Assembly (NCBI RefSeq): GCF_003605635.1
Contig: NZ_QMDW01000007.1
Coordinates: forward strand, 62,001 to 126,000
DNA length: 64,000 nucleotides
Source: Halonotius pteroides
Lineage (GTDB): Archaea > Halobacteriota > Halobacteria > Halobacteriales > Haloferacaceae
Direction of reading: 5' to 3'
Numbering within the stretch: the stretch's first letter is position 1; each line of letters starts with the position of its first letter. Of this stretch, positions 6,705 to 62,417 are shown in pieces. The notes under the pieces are model-generated. The model had not been told where the DNA came from. It saw only the letters and a program-made list of their open reading frames with translations, and did not search any database. Made by a program: the position numbers and the translations under genes.

Positions 6705-8030
6705 TCAGTCGTCGCTTGGGGTCGCCGACGGCGCGTCGCCGCTCTCGCCGACAAAGCCGGCACTGTTGGCGACGGCAGCGATCTCCGGCTGGAACACCCA
6801 GGCGGCCAGCAGGACGATCGGGATCATCGAGACGGCGGTCACGGAGTAGCCGATATGGAAGTTCGCAAGCCACGGCGCGGAGTAGATCAGCGGGTAGACG
6901 ATCCCACCGACCGTACCGACGCCGCCGACAATGCCGGCGACCGATCCTGAGCTGTTAGGAAACATCGCCGGCACTTGGGCAAAGATCGCGCCCTCAGCCC
7001 ACGCACAGCCCGTGCCAACGAGGAAGCCGACGATGACCGCGTTCATTACAACGCCCGAGAAGCCGGCCAGCGTCAGGCCGAACATCATCAGGACGATGAA
7101 ACACAGCCCACAAAACGTCCACTGTTCGCGGTACTGCCCCTTAAAGAATGGCAGGATATCCATCTCTTTGCGGGCCAGAAGATCGCTGCCGTAGCCGCCA
7201 AACGGTCGCAACAGGCCGGCGGCCACGGAGAACGTTGCCGCGAACGTACTCGCCAAGACGAGGTTGCTTGTATCGAAGGCTTCCCGGTAGTAAGTGGCGA
7301 GCCAGCCGTTCATCGATAGCTCAAGGCCGAATGACATGATGTAGGCCGCCGCGAGCACGACTGTTCCGTAGCGGGTGGCGGTGTACACCCACCCTTTGAA
7401 CGTCGCGTTCTCCTTGGTCGCTTGTCGCTTTTCGGTCGTTTTGGCGGCCTCACCGAAGACGTAGTAGACGACGGCGAGAACGATCGAGACACAGCCGGTG
7501 TAGAAAAACGCCGCCCGCCAGTTGGTCGCAAACAACGGGCCGCTCCAGCCGGTGCCGAAGACGCGCGGAAGAATGAGCGCGCCGCCAGCCGCACCGGCGT
7601 TCCCGATGCCGGCGTAGATCCCCTCAGCGAGGCCAAGATTCTCCTCTTCGAACCACTCGGCAACGTGCTGGATGCCGATGACGAACGTGATACCTGCCGT
7701 CGCCACGATCAGCCGTGTCACGAAGAACACGGAGTAGTCCTGTGCAAACGCGCTCCCGATCGAGAACACGCCGACGTACGCCAGCACAATGGCGAAGATG
7801 GCTGGCGCGCCGAACTTATCGGAGAGCCAGCCGGTGAGGATACGGCCAAATGGGGCCATCCAGATGGCCGAACTCGCGAGGATCCCGATCTCGGCCGTCG
7901 AGAGGCTGAACTCCTCGGCCATCCCGCCGGTGAACGGGGCGAAGGAGAACCAGATCAGAAATGAAAAATTGAACCCGATCGTCGCTAACACAAGCGTCCG
8001 GTACTTCGTCATCCGAATCGGACTCTTCAT
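6705..8030 (-). CDS. narK: Nitrate/nitrite transporter, NarK/NasA MFS family
   Basis: A 441-residue polytopic permease with 12 predicted membrane segments. The NarK-type nitrate signatures are present: a glycine-rich segment [12 protein letters not shown] near residue 150 and the conserved Arg in the second transmembrane segment. It brings nitrate (or exchanges nitrite) into the cytoplasm for the NasA reductases encoded upstream on the same strand. A strong Shine-Dalgarno GGAGGTG lies at 8039-8045, 8 nt before the ATG. The start codon overlaps the stop of a 33-codon leader ORF (ATGA). Confidence 0.88.
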
Positions 8031-8128
8031 GCGTTGGCCACCTCCGCAAGTTGGTTAGTGGATGGGTGCTGTCTGGCTCCCAGTCGTTGACACCACTGTA
8101 CGATGTGCCGCTGCAATACTGCGATCAT
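8027..8128 (-). CDS. 33-codon leader ORF overlapping narK start
   Basis: ATG at 8128, TGA at 8029-8027; the stop shares ATGA with the narK start. The peptide is basic and polar (begins MIAVLQRH), unlike the acidic proteome, so its translation rather than its product may matter. The narK Shine-Dalgarno is inside it. TATA-like sequences lie 26-38 nt upstream. Similar leader ORFs precede both nasA genes and nirA. Confidence 0.4.
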
Positions 8129-8543
8129 TGGTTTCAACACGTCTGTCTCACAAAAACGCTGTATTAATAAAACAATCGGCGGACAATTGACCGGATTCAG
8201 GTGGCAAATCAAAACATTACGTGACTTATCGACCACACCCATTTTGTTTCACCATTCATTCACAGAAATATACCATCTCCGATTACAATTCGGTTTTCTG
8301 TATTATTTACTACCGAAATGCGAGTTTTGTCCGTTATAATTCATCATAGTTGGGTCTGAGGGCCTACAGCGAAACTACACGGCACTCTCAGTAGTTGGAC
8401 GAACAGGCACCGCCATCCCCTGACAACTTTCTGTATCGTACTCGACCGGTTTACTCGCCGCTGAGGAGAGTCGGTACCACCGGTCGACAGTTGCCACATA
8501 TCGAAATACCGTGTCGTTGCGGTGGCCTGTGCGGCAACCGCGC
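8129..8543. other. Intergenic region between nasA (copy 1) and narK
   Basis: 415 bp with no convincing gene. Bases 8140-8345 are AT-rich and contain the narK promoter on the minus strand, including TTTTATTAATAC (8172-8161). The element TGTTGAAAC (minus strand, 8139-8131) lies about where transcription should start and recurs in front of nasA copy 2. Bases 8346-8543 hold only GC-rich non-coding sequence downstream of nasA. Confidence 0.5.
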
Positions 8544-10670
8544 CTATCTGTCGACAAGCCCGCCGTCACCGCTGAGCGCCGGCGTCGACGCCGCGGCTGT
8601 CCCCTGATCGTCGTCATCTGTCGAGCGCGGTGGGGCTCGAACGGTCACCGCACACTGCTTGAGGTTTGGTTCGTCAGATTCCGGATCCACCGCCGGCAGC
8701 GTCAGCTTGTTTGCGGCCGGGTTGTGGATCGGCACCCACACCATCCCCGGCGGGACGCTGTCGTCAGCTGCCACGGTGACGGTGACGCTATCGCGCCGGG
8801 ATTCGATCACTGTCCGACTTCGATCGAAGGCATCGAGACAGTTGCCGACTGTCTCGGGATGGATGCGGGCATCTGGAACCGTGTCGTCGTCCGCTCGGTT
8901 CCGAATCCCGGTGTTGTAAACCCCGGCACACCGCCCGGTTGTCAACACTAAAGGATACGCCGCATCGAGGGGTTCCGGCACGCCACTGTGGGTGGCCGCT
9001 GAGAATCGGGCGCGACCCGACTCCGTCTCAAACTGCCATCTGTCGCCACCCTCATGGTATCGGTAGCCGCCATGGCTGTCCGCAGTCGGAGCCGGCCATC
9101 TGACCGCCAGCTCCTCGGTCAGCCGGTCGTAGGAGAGCCCCGAGAGATCCGCGGTTGTGCCGGCGGTCAATGCGGTGAGCTCATCGAAGACACGCCCTGG
9201 ATCCAGCGGTGTCTCCGCAAACAGACCGGTCTCGACACGGTTGCCGATGGCGGCGATGATGTCGAGATCCTGTCGTGCAGCCCCCGGCGGGTCGACTGCC
9301 TGTCGTACCCGCGAGACGCGTCGCTCCATGTTGGTTGCCGTCCCCTCTGTTTCCCCCCACGTCGCCGCCGGCAACACCACATCGGCGCAGGCGACTGTTT
9401 CCGAGTAGAAGGCGTCCTGGGCGACAAGAAAGACCTCCTCTAAGACATCGGTCACCTGACCCGCATCCGGCATCCCGGCCGCCGGGTTCGTCGCTACCGT
9501 CCAGCAGACCTCGCTTTCGCCGCGAGCGATGGCGTCGACGATGCCGACAAAGCCCGGCCCTGTCGTCTCTGGAAGCCGAGAGAGCGGCACGTCCCACGCT
9601 TCGGCGACGGCCTTACGGGCTGTTTCATCGTCGAAAGCGCGATGACCGGGCCAGGTTCCCTTTGAGGAACACACACGGTTACCCATCGAGTTGGCTTGCC
9701 CGGTCAGCGAGAAGGGGCCGCTACCGGGGCCAATATTTCCGGTCACCAAACAGAGATCGATGAGGGCACGGGCCGTCGCTGTCCCCTGAATGCTCTGGTT
9801 GACACCCATCCCCCAGTACAACAGCGTGTCGTCGGTGAGGCCGTCAGCGATGGTCTCGATGGTATCAGTGTCGACACCGGCGGTCTCAGCAGCGGTGTCG
9901 AGCGTCGGCAGCGAGTCGACCAGTTCCTCGTAGCCGGTCGTCTGTGACTCGATAAATTTGGTATCGACATCGCCGGCGTCGATGACGGCTGCCAGCACCG
10001 CTCGGGCCAACGCGAGGTCGGTGCCGGGATCCGGGCGAACGTGGGTGTCGGCGTCGTCGGCGGTCGCCGTCTCAACGGGGTCAACAACGATCAGTTGGCC
10101 GTCGTCGGCGACGCTATCGGTGATCCACCGGTAAACCACCGGATGGGCGGTCGCCGGGTTCGCCCCCCAGATGAGATGGGTGTCGGCTTTCGGGATATCG
10201 TCGTATGTCGGCGGCGGTGCGTCGCTGCCAAACGACTGAAAGTACGCCGAGACCGCCGAAGCCATACAGAGCGTCGTGTTGGAATCGTAGTACGGCGTCC
10301 CAAAGCCGCCGCGGGCAAGCTTCCCAAGCGCGTATGCGGCTTCGTTGGTCTGCTGGCCGCTACCGAGGACAGCGATGTTGCCATTGTTGTTGCCGAGTGC
10401 CTCGATAAAGCGGCTGGTGACAAGCCCGAGAGCCGTCTCCCAGTCGGTTGGCTGGAGCGTGCCACCTCGCCTGATCAGGGGGTCGGTTATCCGCTTGCCG
10501 TCGGGGGCAAGGGTTTCGCTCACGCCGCGTTGGCATTTCGCGCCGCCGGTTGCGGGATGGGAGGGATCACCGGTCACCTCGCCGAGGCTATCCCCATCAG
10601 CTGTCGGTCGCTGGCGATGACCACAGCCGACCGCACACCGCATGCAGGTCGTCGACTGCCAATCGCTCAT
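8544..10670 (-). CDS. nasA: Assimilatory nitrate reductase NasA, copy 1
   Basis: Molybdopterin oxidoreductase of 708 residues that reduces nitrate to nitrite in the cytoplasm with ferredoxin as likely donor. The N-terminal [4Fe-4S] site is C9-x2-C12-x3-C16 and C46 (CQRG). C135 in NTTLCMASAV is the probable Mo ligand. Molybdopterin-binding segments include GTATARALIDL and SKGTWPGHRAF. The C-terminal dinucleotide-binding domain ends near VPIHNPAANKLTL, DPESDEPNLKQCAV. There is no C-terminal BFD-type Fe-S domain, as in other haloarchaeal NasA. Start ATG at 10670 has Shine-Dalgarno GGGAGGTG at 10679-10686 and overlaps a leader ORF. It lies downstream of a diverged paralogue (copy 2). Confidence 0.92.
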   Translation of the reverse strand: MSDWQSTTCMRCAVGCGHRQRPTADGDSLGEVTGDPSHPATGGAKCQRGVSETLAPDGKRITDPLIRRGGTLQPTDWETALGLVTSRFIEALGNNNGNIAVLGSGQQTNEAAYALGKLARGGFGTPYYDSNTTLCMASAVSAYFQSFGSDAPPPTYDDIPKADTHLIWGANPATAHPVVYRWITDSVADDGQLIVVDPVETATADDADTHVRPDPGTDLALARAVLAAVIDAGDVDTKFIESQTTGYEELVDSLPTLDTAAETAGVDTDTIETIADGLTDDTLLYWGMGVNQSIQGTATARALIDLCLVTGNIGPGSGPFSLTGQANSMGNRVCSSKGTWPGHRAFDDETARKAVAEAWDVPLSRLPETTGPGFVGIVDAIARGESEVCWTVATNPAAGMPDAGQVTDVLEEVFLVAQDAFYSETVACADVVLPAATWGETEGTATNMERRVSRVRQAVDPPGAARQDLDIIAAIGNRVETGLFAETPLDPGRVFDELTALTAGTTADLSGLSYDRLTEELAVRWPAPTADSHGGYRYHEGGDRWQFETESGRARFSAATHSGVPEPLDAAYPLVLTTGRCAGVYNTGIRNRADDDTVPDARIHPETVGNCLDAFDRSRTVIESRRDSVTVTVAADDSVPPGMVWVPIHNPAANKLTLPAVDPESDEPNLKQCAVTVRAPPRSTDDDDQGTAAASTPALSGDGGLVDR

Positions 10671-10708
10671 CGCGGCTGCACCTCCCGTGTGCGCCGATTG
10701 ATCTGCAT
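10667..10708 (-). CDS. 13-codon leader ORF overlapping nasA copy 1 start
   Basis: ATG at 10708, TGA at 10669-10667 overlapping the nasA ATG as ATGA. Peptide MQINRRTREVQPR. An in-frame ATG at 10738 would make it 23 codons. The TATA box TTAATAAA (10746-10739) lies about 34 nt upstream of the shorter start. The nasA Shine-Dalgarno sits inside the ORF. Confidence 0.4.
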   Translation of the reverse strand: MQINRRTREVQPR

Positions 10709-10836
10709 AGTTTTGTGTCTACACACCGTATTCACCATTTATTAACTGTATTTGGGTTATTCACACTGAAAACCATTTGGTTGGTTGTTATATCTATTGA
10801 CTACTGCACATATTGGCGTATGTTTTGACATCGGTG

Positions 10837-12948
10837 TCAGTCGGCATCACCGACAACCGTCTCCTCGGTAGACAGTCCTTGCGTTGATAGTGGGTTCGAC
10901 CGTGACGGCGGCCGGAGATCGACCGCACACTGTTTGAAGTTTGGCTCGTCGGACTCCGGATCGACCGCCGGCAGCGTCAACGCATTGACCGCGGGGTGGT
11001 GGATCGGCAGCCAGAGCAGGCCGGTCGGCACCCCATCGTCGGGCTGGACGGTGACGGTCACCGACGACCGTCGCGAGACGACGACGGTACGGCCGCGATC
11101 CAGTGCCTCGATATGCTTCAGTGTCGTCTCCGGGTGGACACGAACGACCGGGCAATCTTCAGCCTCGCCGCCACGCGTTCGAACCCCGGTGTTGTAGGCA
11201 TCAGGCTCCCGGCCGGTCGTCAGCGTCAGCGGATACGCCTCGGTGGTCGGCTCCGCGAGGCCGCCGTGGGTGGCAGTCGAAAACCGTGCCCGCCCGGATG
11301 CTGTCGGAAACGTCCATCTCTCGTCGTCGACGTAGCGGTAGCCGGCTTGGGTCTCGGGGTCATCCGTTGGCCATCGGACGGCGAGTTCGGCTTCCAGCCG
11401 GTCGTAGCTGATCCCCGTGCAGTCGGCGGGCGTCCCGGCAGTGAGTGCCCGAAACTCATCGAAGACCGCCGCGGGGTCTCTCGCGGGCCGATCGATGAGT
11501 TCCGGATACAACCGGTGACCGATCGTGGAGATAATATCGATATCCTGTCGTACCTTCGATGGCGTCTCGGTGGCTGCCCGAACACGGGAGATGGTTCGCT
11601 CCATGTTGGTTGCCGTCCCCTCGCTTTCACCCCACGTTGCCGCCGGCAACACGACATCTGCTATCTCGGTGGTTTCGGTGCGGAAGGCATCTTGGACGAC
11701 AAGGAAGGTGTCCTCAAGCGTCCCCCGAACCGCATCGGCGTCAGGCATGCCGGCGACCGGGTTTGTTGCTACCGCCCAACAGGCCCCCGGCGGCCCATCA
11801 GCGAGCGCATCAGCGATACCAACCGGGCCAGGGCCCGGATCGTCGGGGAACTGGTCGGCGTTGATCCCCCACGCGTCGGCGACGGTTTCGCGGTGCTCCG
11901 GATCGCCGAAGGCGCGGTGGCCGGGCCAGGTTCCCTTCGAGGAGCAGATCCGCGTTCCCATCGAGTTGGCTTGGCCGGTCAGCGAGAAGGGGCCACTGCC
12001 GGAACCCATGTTCCCGGTTGCCAGACAGAGATCGATCAACGCCCGTGCTGTCGCTGTCCCCTGAATGCTCTGGTTGACACCCATCCCCCAGTACAACAGC
12101 GTATCGTCGGCCAACGCCGTAGCGACGGTGTCGACAGTTTCCATCTTAACGCCGGCGGTGTCAGCAGCGACTTTGGCCTCAGGGAGTGCATCGAGAAGTG
12201 CTTCAAAACCGACTGTCGCGTCGTCGATGAACGACCGGTCGATCTCGTTGGTTGCGACCAGCCGGGCAAGGATGGCCCGAGCGAACGCAAGATCGGTGCC
12301 AGGATCGAGTTGGACGTGGGTATCGCCGTCCTCAGCAGTTTCACTTTCGACAGGATCGACGACAAGCAGCCGACTATCGTCCTCGTCTGCGCTCTGGTTG
12401 ATCCACCGATACATAACCGGATGAGCGGCTGTGGGGTTGGCTCCCCAGACGAGATGCGTTTTTGCTTCGGGGATGTCGTCGTACGTTGGCGGTGGCGCGT
12501 CGCTGCCAAAGGCTTGGTAGTAAGCGGTGACCGCCGAGGCCATACAGAGAGTGGTGTTGGCGTCGTAGTATCGGGTGCCAAAGCCGCCGCGGGCAAGCTT
12601 GCCGAGCACGTAGGCGGCCTCATTGGTCTGTTGCCCACTCCCGAGCACCGCAACGCCGTGGGGTGACCGTTGGAGTGCAGTCTCAAATCTGTTTACCACG
12701 GTGCCGATGGCAGTGTCCCAACTTGTCGCGACCAGTTCGTCGCCTTTCCTGATGAGCGGCCGGGTGAGCCACTCGCCGTCCGGATCAGCCGATTCGCTGA
12801 TCCCGCGCTGACAGGCTAACCCGTGGCTAACCGGGTGATTTGCGTCGCCACGAACGGTGTCAATCCCATAGCCACTGTCGACGCCCTTCTGGAGGTGACC
12901 ACACCCGACCGCACACCGCATACACGTTGTCGGCGTCCACTCGGTCAT
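10837..12948 (-). CDS. nasA: Assimilatory nitrate reductase NasA, copy 2
   Basis: A 703-residue paralogue of copy 1, collinear with it over the first 140 residues without gaps. It has the same [4Fe-4S] ligands (C9, C12, C16, C46) and Mo ligand C135. By eye about 60% of residues match, with long identical blocks such as LYWGMGVNQSIQGTATARAL. It has its own promoter region and leader ORF, so the two reductases may be expressed separately. A 53-bp block (12050-12102) is identical in DNA to 9775-9827 of copy 1, suggesting gene conversion or very tight constraint. It is divergent from nirA. Confidence 0.92.
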   Translation of the reverse strand: MTEWTPTTCMRCAVGCGHLQKGVDSGYGIDTVRGDANHPVSHGLACQRGISESADPDGEWLTRPLIRKGDELVATSWDTAIGTVVNRFETALQRSPHGVAVLGSGQQTNEAAYVLGKLARGGFGTRYYDANTTLCMASAVTAYYQAFGSDAPPPTYDDIPEAKTHLVWGANPTAAHPVMYRWINQSADEDDSRLLVVDPVESETAEDGDTHVQLDPGTDLAFARAILARLVATNEIDRSFIDDATVGFEALLDALPEAKVAADTAGVKMETVDTVATALADDTLLYWGMGVNQSIQGTATARALIDLCLATGNMGSGSGPFSLTGQANSMGTRICSSKGTWPGHRAFGDPEHRETVADAWGINADQFPDDPGPGPVGIADALADGPPGACWAVATNPVAGMPDADAVRGTLEDTFLVVQDAFRTETTEIADVVLPAATWGESEGTATNMERTISRVRAATETPSKVRQDIDIISTIGHRLYPELIDRPARDPAAVFDEFRALTAGTPADCTGISYDRLEAELAVRWPTDDPETQAGYRYVDDERWTFPTASGRARFSTATHGGLAEPTTEAYPLTLTTGREPDAYNTGVRTRGGEAEDCPVVRVHPETTLKHIEALDRGRTVVVSRRSSVTVTVQPDDGVPTGLLWLPIHHPAVNALTLPAVDPESDEPNFKQCAVDLRPPSRSNPLSTQGLSTEETVVGDAD

Positions 12949-13037
12949 TGAGCCCTCCGGTGGCCGCTCGGCTGGCGGTTGCCGGCGATGAACTCCGATG
13001 ATAACTCAGTGAACGTGTTGATGGATGATGCGACCAT
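12945..13037 (-). CDS. 30-codon leader ORF overlapping nasA copy 2 start
   Basis: ATG at 13037, TGA at 12947-12945, sharing ATGA with nasA. Peptide begins MVASSINTFTELS and is Arg-rich at its end. A GGAGG Shine-Dalgarno for nasA lies 6 nt before the ATG, within the ORF. The TATA-like AATTATTTTG (13080-13071) is about 39 nt upstream. TGTTGAAAC (13053-13045) lies between them, near the expected transcription start. Confidence 0.4.
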   Translation of the reverse strand: MVASSINTFTELSSEFIAGNRQPSGHRRAQ

Positions 13038-13390
13038 TATAGTTGTTTCAACAAGTACTGTGGCTATGAGCAAAATAATTGTTTCGATATGGCATATTTT
13101 CTGAAAAATTGAGCGTTTTTAACCATTGTGCATGCGCCCCTCGCGCGGGCACTCAGCGCGGCGTGTGCCAACTGTTGTGGGCGCAAAAATGTCGAACTGT
13201 TCTTTGCTCAGGAAATAAAGCCACAATCAACATGTCTTTGTGCGTTATCATAAAAATAGTTTAGTTCCTAACCACAGCGATGAAATATACTTCCGTTTGC
13301 CCCCGGATTTCAGAGATCACCTGGTTTTGACTGTAATTTCCATATTTATTAAACGAATACGCTTTTATGCAGAGATACAAATCTATATCT
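13038..13390. other. Divergent promoter region nasA2 / nirA
   Basis: 353 bp separating divergent units. The left part carries the nasA2 promoter. The centre (13125-13195) is a GC-rich island in AT-rich surroundings and holds a GGCAC/GTGCC inverted repeat (13147-13168). The right part holds the nirA promoter CTTTTATG (13362-13369), 25 nt upstream of the nirA leader ORF. This is a good candidate for binding of a nitrogen-responsive regulator. Confidence 0.5.
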
Positions 13391-13459
13391 ATGCTCACTG
13401 AGCATCCGATCAAAGAACCGGTTGATGATTCACACTTTGATGTGACGGGAGGCGACTGA
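13391..13459 (+). CDS. 22-codon leader ORF overlapping nirA start
   Basis: ATG at 13391 and TGA at 13457-13459, overlapping the nirA ATG as TGATG. The peptide begins MLTEHPIKEPVDDSHFD and is acidic, unlike the other leader peptides. Box A centred at 13366 predicts transcription starting at or next to this ATG, so it should be leaderless. The nirA Shine-Dalgarno GGGAGG lies in its last codons. Confidence 0.5.
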   Translation: MLTEHPIKEPVDDSHFDVTGGD

Positions 13460-15210
13460 TGGCACATAAAAAAGAGACGTACAAAGACGAGCTCTACGGC
13501 GATGCGGTTCGCGAGAAGATCCATGAGTTCGCCGAGCAGGGGTATGAGTCGATCCCGGAAGACGAGCGCGAGGCGTGGTTCTCTCGATTCAAGTTCTGTG
13601 GTGTCTTTCACCAGCGAGACGGACAGGACGGCTACTTCATGATGCGGTTGACCAACTGCAACGGCCGGCTGCAACCGGGGCAGCTTCGCGCCATCGGCGA
13701 GGTGGCCAGCGAGTACGCCCAAGGGCCGGTTGCCAACCCCGAGTACGGCAACGGCTGGATCGACTTCACCACCCGGCAGTCGATTCAGCTACACTGGATC
13801 GAACTTGAGGATGTCCCGGAGATCTGGGAAAAACTGGAAGCCGTCGGCGTTACGACACGGTCATCCGGTGGCGACACGATGCGCAACATTTCCGGCTGTC
13901 CCGTCGCCGGCATCTCAAAAGACGAGATCATCGATACCTTGCCGCTGTTGGATCGGTTCCAAGAGGAGATCCGCGGCGACAACGATCTCTGTAATATGCC
14001 GCGGAAATTCAATATCTCGATCACAGGAACCCCAGAGGGTGGCGCACAGGACTCGATCAACGATATCGGGCTCGAACCCGCAACGAAAGAGATCGACGGG
14101 GAGGAAACCCTCGGCTTCAACGTCCGCGTCGGTGGCGGCCTCGGCGGGCACGAACCACGGGTGGCTCGCCCGCTGGATGTTTTCGTCGATCCGGACAACG
14201 CCTACGAGGTGGTTCGTGGCTTCGTCGAACTCTACCACGACCACGGCAACCGACAGAACCGGAACAAGAACCGCTCACGGTTCTTCGTTGACGAACACGG
14301 GACAGAGTGGATTCGGGAGCTGTTAGGGGAGGAGTACGTCGATTTCGAGCTTCATACCGCCGGCGAAGATATGCGAGAGGAGTACACATACAACGCCGGT
14401 CGCGGCGATGGCGACGAGTTCGACTACCTCGGCGTCCACGAGCAGCAGGACGGCAACTACTACGTCGGGCTCAGCGTCGCCGTCGGACGCATGCCAGCCG
14501 AGGAGGCGATCGAACTCGCCGACCTCGCAGACGAGTACGGCTCCGGCCGGCTCCGGCTGACCCGGCGACAGAACCCGATTCTCATCGATATTGAGGGTGA
14601 CCGCCTCAACGAGCTGCTGGAGGAGCCACTGCTGGACAAACACACACCCGAACCCAATCCCTTCACCCGCGGGGCGATGGCCTGTACCGGCACCGAGTTC
14701 TGCAATCTCGCGCTCACCGAGACCAAGGCCCGGATGTCGAGGATGCTGCGGTGGCTGCGCGACAACGTCGAACTCCCGGCCGATGTCGAGCAGCTCAAGA
14801 TCCACTACTCGGGCTGTACGGCCGACTGTGGACACGCCAACACCGCGGATATCGGGCTGATCGGGATGCGCGGCCGCAAGGATGGGGAGATGGTCGAGAC
14901 GCTGGATCTGGGTGTCGGCGGCGGCATCGGCGAGGAGCCGTCGTTCGTTGAGTGGATTCGCCAGCGCATCCCCGCAGACGAGGTTCCCGGCGCGATCCGA
15001 AATCTTGTCGAGGCGTTCGCGGCCCACCGTGAGGCCGGCCAGACGTTCCGCGAATGGGCCGACACAGCCGGCGACGAGCAGTTGATCGAGTTCGCCGAAC
15101 CCGAGGAGACAACGTACGACGACCCGTGTCTCACGGATGCCAAACAGGCGTGGTACCCCTTCGCCGAGACAGGCGACCCGAGCCCCGAGGCTGCCTCAGC
15201 GGACGACTGA
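13459..15210 (+). CDS. nirA: Ferredoxin-nitrite reductase
   Basis: Siroheme enzyme of 583 residues reducing nitrite to ammonium with six electrons from ferredoxin. The siroheme/[4Fe-4S] cysteines are C412 and C418 (CTGTEFC) and C453 and C457 (CTADC). Two ferrodoxin-like half domains are recognisable, including GNGWIDFTTRQSIQLHW in the first and GSGRLRLTRRQNPIL in the second. The C-terminal acidic tail is a halophilic feature. It is divergent from the nasA genes and completes nitrate assimilation. Translation start is the ATG at 13459, coupled to the leader ORF. Confidence 0.95.
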   Translation: MAHKKETYKDELYGDAVREKIHEFAEQGYESIPEDEREAWFSRFKFCGVFHQRDGQDGYFMMRLTNCNGRLQPGQLRAIGEVASEYAQGPVANPEYGNGWIDFTTRQSIQLHWIELEDVPEIWEKLEAVGVTTRSSGGDTMRNISGCPVAGISKDEIIDTLPLLDRFQEEIRGDNDLCNMPRKFNISITGTPEGGAQDSINDIGLEPATKEIDGEETLGFNVRVGGGLGGHEPRVARPLDVFVDPDNAYEVVRGFVELYHDHGNRQNRNKNRSRFFVDEHGTEWIRELLGEEYVDFELHTAGEDMREEYTYNAGRGDGDEFDYLGVHEQQDGNYYVGLSVAVGRMPAEEAIELADLADEYGSGRLRLTRRQNPILIDIEGDRLNELLEEPLLDKHTPEPNPFTRGAMACTGTEFCNLALTETKARMSRMLRWLRDNVELPADVEQLKIHYSGCTADCGHANTADIGLIGMRGRKDGEMVETLDLGVGGGIGEEPSFVEWIRQRIPADEVPGAIRNLVEAFAAHREAGQTFREWADTAGDEQLIEFAEPEETTYDDPCLTDAKQAWYPFAETGDPSPEAASADD

Positions 15211-61714: not shown

Positions 61715-62352
61715 GCGTCCACCTCAACAGCGGGCCCCATCGTCGTTTTCACGTAGATGGTATCGAGGTTCAGCGGCCCTTTTTCGAGGTCAGCTTCGAG
61801 ACGCCGGATGATCACGTCGATGTTGTCGGCGATCTCCTCGGCGTCCATGTCGTCGGCTCCCACGCGCGTGTGGAACGTGCGTCGGTCGCCGGAGCGAAGC
61901 TGCACCGTGTTTTTCATTCGGTTGACTGTTTCGACGACGTCGTCGTCTGGCTGCAGTGGCGTCGGCATCTTTCCTCGTGGCCCGAGAACGGTTCCGAGGT
62001 AGCGGCCGATGTCCTGCATCAGACTGGCCTCGGCGACGAAGAAGTCGGTGTCGTCGGCGAGGTCTTTGGCGTCGTCGTCATCGTCGCCGAGGTCTTCGAG
62101 GTCGTCCCCCGACAGCACCTCGTCGGCAACATCCTCGGCCCGAAGGGCGGTTTCGCCCTCCGCAAACACAACGATCTGTGTCTCTTGGCCGGTGCCGGAC
62201 GGGAGCACGATGCTCTCGTCGACGCGATTCGATGGGTCGTCTAGGTCTAGATCACGCAGATTCACCGCGAGATCGACGGTCTCACCGAAGTTCCGTGGTG
62301 GAGACTCGTCGAGGGCGCGCGAAACTGCTTGTACTATCGTATCGTCTGCCAT
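61711..62352 (-). CDS. rpl1: Ribosomal protein L1
   Basis: A 213-residue two-domain rRNA-binding protein of the L1 stalk. Conserved segment [21 protein letters not shown] and the end [16 protein letters not shown]. First gene of the L1-L10-L12 operon. In several archaea L1 represses its own mRNA. Here the leader contains two hairpins and a 21-codon leader ORF, and the ATG is preceded by GGAGGTG at 6 nt. Confidence 0.95.
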
Positions 62353-62417
62353 TATTCACCTCCGTAGTACGCAGGAATGCTCCTACGGGTCAGTGACACA
62401 GGCGAGGCCTGTCTCAT
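62352..62417 (-). CDS. 21-codon leader ORF overlapping the L1 start
   Basis: ATG at 62417, TAA at 62354-62352; the TAA overlaps the L1 ATG as TAATG. The box A TTTTAGG (62443-62437) is 20-26 nt upstream, so the leader ORF should be leaderless. The peptide begins [18 protein letters not shown]. The ORF runs through the GGAGGTG Shine-Dalgarno and through both leader hairpins. Confidence 0.45.
62362..62412 (-). promoter_or_regulatory. L1 mRNA leader hairpins
   Basis: Two stems within 66 nt of the L1 start. ACAGGC-CTC-GCCTGT (62412-62398) and CCGTAG-(15 nt)-CTACGG (62388-62362). The second ends immediately before the Shine-Dalgarno GGAGG. This is where an L1 binding site regulating the operon would be expected. 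Confidence 0.5.

Follow-up and report, generated by a model that had tools for sequence, protein, structure and literature searches.

Nitrate assimilation genes and their leader ORFs

The window comprised 64,000 nucleotides of the Halonotius pteroides genome and held the nitrate assimilation genes narK, nasA1 and nasA2, oriented leftward, and nirA, oriented rightward. All four start codons (4/4) overlapped the stop codon of a short ORF. The overlap was ATGA at narK (8030, minus strand), nasA1 (10670, minus strand) and nasA2 (12948, minus strand) and TGATG at nirA (13459, plus strand). The following features were located.

6705 to 8030, minus strand: narK, nitrate/nitrite MFS transporter (TIGR00886, E 2e-52, under its cut-off; PF07690)
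8027 to 8128, minus strand: narK leader ORF, 33 codons plus TGA from ATG; 37 codons from an in-frame GTG at 8140
8039 to 8045, minus strand: narK Shine-Dalgarno GGAGGTG, within the leader ORF
8164 to 8170, minus strand: narK TATA box TTATTAA, 30 nt upstream of the in-frame GTG and 42 nt upstream of the ATG
8544 to 10670, minus strand: nasA1, assimilatory nitrate reductase (NF041323, above cut-off)
10667 to 10708, minus strand: nasA1 leader ORF, 13 codons plus TGA; 23 codons from an ATG at 10738
10679 to 10685, minus strand: nasA1 Shine-Dalgarno GGAGGTG, within the leader ORF
10739 to 10745, minus strand: nasA1 TATA box TTAATAA, 37 nt upstream of the 13-codon ATG
10837 to 12948, minus strand: nasA2, assimilatory nitrate reductase (NF041323, above cut-off)
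12945 to 13037, minus strand: nasA2 leader ORF, 30 codons plus TGA
12954 to 12958, minus strand: nasA2 Shine-Dalgarno GGAGG, within the leader ORF
13073 to 13079, minus strand: nasA2 TATA-like ATTATTT, 42 nt upstream of the leader ATG, with identical spacing in Halorubrum
13363 to 13369, plus strand: nirA TATA box TTTTATG, 27-28 nt upstream of the leader ATG
13391 to 13459, plus strand: nirA leader ORF, 22 codons plus TGA, overlapping the nirA ATG (TGATG)
13448 to 13452, plus strand: nirA Shine-Dalgarno GGAGG, within the leader ORF
13459 to 15210, plus strand: nirA, ferredoxin-nitrite reductase family (PRK09566, E 3e-129, under its cut-off; NIR_SIR domains)

The gene identities proposed by the sequence-only reading were confirmed, the two NasA proteins scoring above the haloarchaeal NasA cut-off and the NarK-type MFS transporter and the NirA-type reductase below strict cut-offs. 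The four overlaps and the leader lengths were likewise found as that reading had described them, as was the GGAGG of the downstream gene within the last codons of its leader (4/4). The 3' end of the 16S rRNA of the Halonotius pteroides genome was GGCTGGATCACCTCCT (ending ATCACCTCCT), so GGAGGTG is able to pair with it. The leaders and their genes had the arrangement of a termination-reinitiation pair, with stop and start overlapping in the window, leader stops at -8 to +8 in relatives, and a Shine-Dalgarno in the upstream ORF matching the 16S rRNA. A second nitrite/sulfite reductase-type protein, encoded at another place in the genome (G000:C20:43936-45648), showed 56% identity to NirA and is probably a sulfite reductase paralog.

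TATA-like pentamers upstream of leaderless-type ATGs peaked at -30 in the Halonotius pteroides genome. The nirA leader ATG and the narK GTG matched leaderless spacing, and a UTR of about 7-13 nt was predicted for the remaining leader ATGs. The ATG of the 23-codon nasA1 variant (10738) coincided with the TATA box itself. The earlier description of the leaders as lying at leaderless or near-leaderless distance is right as a prediction from TATA spacing (27-42 nt against the -30 peak); judged only by this spacing, the leader cistrons would be leaderless or near-leaderless. About ten narK leaders had GTG as the sole start near the predicted +1. Leaderless GUG was reported to be non-functional in Haloferax volcanii (PMC3986360), which counts against the narK GTG starts. 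No mapped transcription start was found in the text of the nasABC promoter paper. An element of the type TTGTCAACCGA or TTATTAAACGA, common to relatives, was located about 17 nt upstream of the narK and nirA TATA boxes, at about 8165-8190 (minus strand) and 13343-13369 (plus strand), and may be a regulator or BRE site.

Occurrence and frame of the leaders in relatives

Background rates were calculated from 624 kb of the Halonotius pteroides genome, 1.27 Mb of relatives and 800 kb of Halohasta, with a simple gene caller whose start choices are approximate. An ATG-initiated ORF of 8-62 codons ended exactly on the start of 10% of the leading genes without Shine-Dalgarno in the 624 kb of the own genome. 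At this rate, the chance of 4/4 is about 1e-4, before correcting for the free choice of feature in the sequence-only reading. Exact ATGA or TGATG overlap was too narrow a measure for nirA, whose leader ended at -8, -5, -4, +5 or +8 in many genera. The wider measure comprised ATG-initiated ORFs of 10-70 codons with a stop at -8 to +8; widening the stop window raises the background too, and the background was measured at equal width. It was then 17% of the leading genes without Shine-Dalgarno in the own genome and 13% in relatives. In two sets of relatives (family and named), which share some genomes and in which operonic cases were counted, leaders were present at 79% and 63% of nirA, 87% and 94% of nasA2, 75% and 70% of nasA1 and 63% and 75% of narK. 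Among genes with an apparent promoter of their own, ATG leaders preceded 52/66 nirA, 28/34 nasA2, 24/31 nasA1 and 24/32 narK, the other eight narK having a GTG leader; the sequences are related, and these raw counts overstate independence. The congeners compared were the uncultured Halonotius A07HN63, H. roseus and H. terrestris. Comparison across relatives showed leader ORFs and stop-start linkage to be kept for narK, nasA2 and nirA, and the reverse pattern, in which overlap and leader are lost while Shine-Dalgarno and spacing stay, was not observed for these three genes.

For narK, the TATA box was used as an anchor, picked without regard to frame, in 29 genes from as many genomes. The distance from TATA box to start ranged from 130 to 233 nt. 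It equalled 2 modulo 3 in 28/29 cases, and in these a start codon in frame lay 30, 33 or 42 nt past the TATA start. These 28 cases represented 12 distinct lengths (137, 140, 149, 170, 191, 194, 197, 200, 203, 212, 218 and 233). The exception, L103, had a distance of 130 nt and starts at 29 and 35. No stop interrupted the leader frame in any of the genes (29/29), and up to five stops occurred in the other two frames. nasA2 showed six lengths in one phase, with L039 as the single outlier. Where narK directly adjoined nasA (L051, L053 and L056), the narK start overlapped the end of nasA itself, and the short leader therefore occupies the place that an upstream cistron holds elsewhere. We infer that the start regions of these genes are designed for reinitiation and that, for a gene transcribed from its own promoter, the leader takes the part of the upstream cistron. 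nasA1 is the weakest of the four cases, because Halonotius roseus (L044) has no ATG leader there.

Two further observations concern nasA. Where nirA and nasA2 were co-directed, an ORF of about 45-75 codons with a kept MDVAPELF or APELF motif lay between them and ended on the nasA2 start (L078, L080, L083, L086, L090, L095, L062, L064, L070 and L079). The nasA leaders of Natrialbaceae (L168, L172, L175, L187, L198 and L209) had a DCK(S)H-like stretch in common, which was the closest to a conserved leader peptide seen in the comparison.

A nirA leader, mostly of 17-25 codons, was present in 14/17 Haloferacaceae genera and also in Natrialbaceae. It was absent from Halobaculum, both g20 genomes and several Haloarculaceae. 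The nirA tree showed about 29 changes in stop-site class and 11 in the presence of a leader. The TATA-to-start distance was near-constant (94-97 nt in most genomes), which makes the frame-phase test weak for this gene. In many genera a T at the third position of codon 3, followed by a Lys or Glu codon, places the end of the leader 11 nt inside nirA. Usage of such T-ending codons in these genomes was 7% for CAT, 5% for AAT and 13% for AGT. Codon 3 ended in T in 33/40 sequences in which a frame opened by ATG extends to +8 and the T creates a stop, compared with 7/65 in which no such frame extends to +8 (Fisher 1e-12, a value overstated by the relatedness of the sequences). Co-occurrence of the nirA leader with a Shine-Dalgarno of at least 5 was not significant (p 0.057); with at least 4 it was significant, and on independent pairs it was not (median p 0.25). 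A GGACNATNGTCC-like element, possibly an operator, was located about 20-30 nt upstream of nirA (e.g. L071, L100, L102 and L211), within the leader ORF or replacing it.

A look-alike was present in the window at rpl1, the gene for ribosomal protein L1. A 21-codon ORF (62352-62417, minus strand) ended on the rpl1 start and was accompanied by an 8-nt Shine-Dalgarno and by a TATA-like box with the spacing of a leaderless start. Among 30 genomes, the Shine-Dalgarno and its surroundings were conserved and the ORF was present in 3/30, all of them Halonotius. It was rejected as a fifth leader cistron, being absent in 27/30 relatives, and by its pattern of occurrence probably arose by chance over a leader that is conserved. 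The comparative test is thus able to reject a candidate, and the presence of a strong Shine-Dalgarno at a leading gene is not enough to infer a leader cistron. Outside the nas genes of Halonotius pteroides and Halohasta, a short ORF ended on the start of 12/18 leading genes with a Shine-Dalgarno of at least 6 versus 73/460 without one, counts in which some 'leading' genes may follow a missed upstream gene and, given rpl1, some of the ORFs are chance.

Leader peptides, proposed ribosome handover and alternative explanations

Leader dN/dS was near 1 (0.49-1.9 across eight small sets). GC3 was 0.50-0.68 in leaders versus 0.78-0.88 in genes. No gene-like codon bias was detected in the leaders, and no peptide sequence was shared between genera. 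The leaders had no codon run in common and none of the regulatory, attenuator type, and no amino-acid enrichment pointing to a sensed amino acid was common to the leaders of the four genes. RNA folds of the four window leaders were no better than shuffles (z 0.40, -0.30, -0.65 and 0.88), and no terminator-like site was found within 8000-13500. The earlier remark that three of the peptides are basic holds in Halonotius pteroides and does not carry over to relatives, in which the other two frames were more basic than the leaders. The leaders also contained more Asp and Glu than these frames, part of which may stem from the Shine-Dalgarno itself; this leaves room for some peptide constraint. An argument for a functional peptide from codon usage or acidity was rejected as unsupported, given dN/dS near 1 and GC3 below that of genes.

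Leaderless or near-leaderless initiation is the main mode in haloarchaea. In Haloferax volcanii, Shine-Dalgarno sequences are reported not to be used at 5'-UTRs for de novo initiation (PMC3986360) and ATGA/TGATG pairs are strictly coupled (PMC6728339). Coupling drops with distance and is gone at about 22 nt, and for coupling the final 15 nt of the upstream gene are enough, a result from E. coli pairs (PMC10666635). Position, frame, stop site and Shine-Dalgarno of the leaders were kept across genera while the peptide drifted. This pattern suggests that the role of the leader is ribosome delivery and not the peptide. Because of the conservation pattern and the published Haloferax volcanii work, the simplest reading is that the leader cistrons hand ribosomes to the nas genes by termination-reinitiation with the peptide as a by-product, and we consider this very likely. 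The lineages lacking a nirA leader, the missing nasA1 ATG leader of Halonotius roseus and the narK leaders with GTG as sole start count against it. Each of the four mRNAs would start at the leader cistron or about 7-13 nt upstream of it. A ribosome would load at the mRNA 5' end in leaderless or near-leaderless mode, translate 13-37 leader codons and terminate atop the start codon of the main gene, where it would reinitiate, aided by the GGAGG in the last codons of the leader. Of the mechanism in the sequence-only reading, leaderless loading and termination-reinitiation with reuse of the Shine-Dalgarno are thus backed by the conserved frame, stop site and spacing and by the published Haloferax work. 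Its suggestion of tRNA starvation is not, given the missing codon run, fold and amino-acid enrichment and dN/dS near 1.

Short ORFs immediately upstream of pathway genes would also be expected of attenuator-type leader peptides, in which stalling at particular codons under nitrogen or amino-acid starvation sets downstream expression, and stop-start coupling would pass on a stall. This is improbable for drifting peptides with dN/dS near 1 and no common codon run, the more so as the window leaders showed neither a fold above shuffles nor a terminator-like site in 8000-13500. The leaders might instead encode small functional proteins, to which their lower basicity relative to the alternative frames and the MDVAPELF motif kept in the nirA-nasA2 intergenic ORF of other genera would be suited. 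However, dN/dS near 1, the lack of sequence common to genera and the lack of gene-like codon bias make such proteins highly unlikely. A frame that is open even in leaders of 50-68 codons would agree with translation serving mainly to hold ribosomes close to RNA polymerase on the 5' region. Such a role needs neither a stop within 8 nt of the start, nor its repeated re-creation, nor a Shine-Dalgarno in the leader, and appears quite unlikely compared with reinitiation.

Chance was weighed in the same way. Neither ATGA starts nor short open frames are unusual, 46% of leading starts without Shine-Dalgarno overlapping some stop codon, and the Shine-Dalgarno or an operator might be all that is conserved; rpl1, with its conserved Shine-Dalgarno and an ORF in 3/30, is such a case. 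The test that rejects rpl1 nevertheless supports the nas genes through frame phase, rate and the rare codon 3, and coincidence can hardly account for them. Judged by the comparative sequence data, which settle this point, the leader ORFs before the nas genes are not chance, and in our view chance is excluded at the level of the family for narK and nirA.

Relation to known systems and implications

The proposed termination-reinitiation leaders resemble the leaderless, RTGA-coupled small ORFs of mycobacteria (Shell et al. 2015, PMC4633059). In both, a short ORF, predicted from TATA spacing to be leaderless or near-leaderless at the nas genes, ends on the gene start, linkage is kept with an unconserved peptide, and ribosome delivery has been proposed; conserved linkage with an unconserved peptide was also what the nas leaders showed. 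Mycobacteria, however, are bacteria that use Shine-Dalgarno sequences at 5'-UTRs, whereas haloarchaea reportedly make no use of them in that position and have leaders throughout an entire pathway. The overlapping pairs of Haloferax volcanii (PMC6728339, PMC10666635) likewise have ATGA or TGATG, with overlaps of -4, -1 and -8 nt, and a Shine-Dalgarno in the upstream ORF. They consist of annotated protein genes, whereas the nas genes have as upstream cistron a short ORF whose peptide is not conserved. The Haloferax volcanii uORFs in long 5'-UTRs are similarly short (15-31 codons); in the part of that source consulted, sixteen cases in UTRs of 150-250 nt are given by size and pI, and no overlap, conservation or coupling is described (PMC4983044). 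Leader peptides of trp-type attenuators are also short ORFs before pathway genes, but no regulatory codons, hairpins or terminator were found for the nas leaders. No description of leaders at haloarchaeal nitrate genes was found in the open-access literature text. As far as found, the nas leaders are of the same kind as the mycobacterial ORFs, and the pathway-wide archaeal set is new.

A broader reading, which we hold tentatively and regard as rather evenly balanced, is that, throughout one pathway and in several families, haloarchaea load ribosomes by means of dedicated leader cistrons that work independently of their peptide, with many narK leaders starting at a leaderless GTG. A leaderless narK GTG, if true, would contradict the published data that such starts fail. 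The nas leaders are natural constructs for leaderless GUG initiation and for the minimum cistron length for reinitiation. If the broader reading is true, it would explain why a strong Shine-Dalgarno is kept at a few leading haloarchaeal genes although such sequences are reported not to work at 5'-UTRs, since a hidden short cistron would make the 5' region a coupled gene pair. Supposedly untranslated 5' regions of haloarchaea would then conceal translated ORFs.
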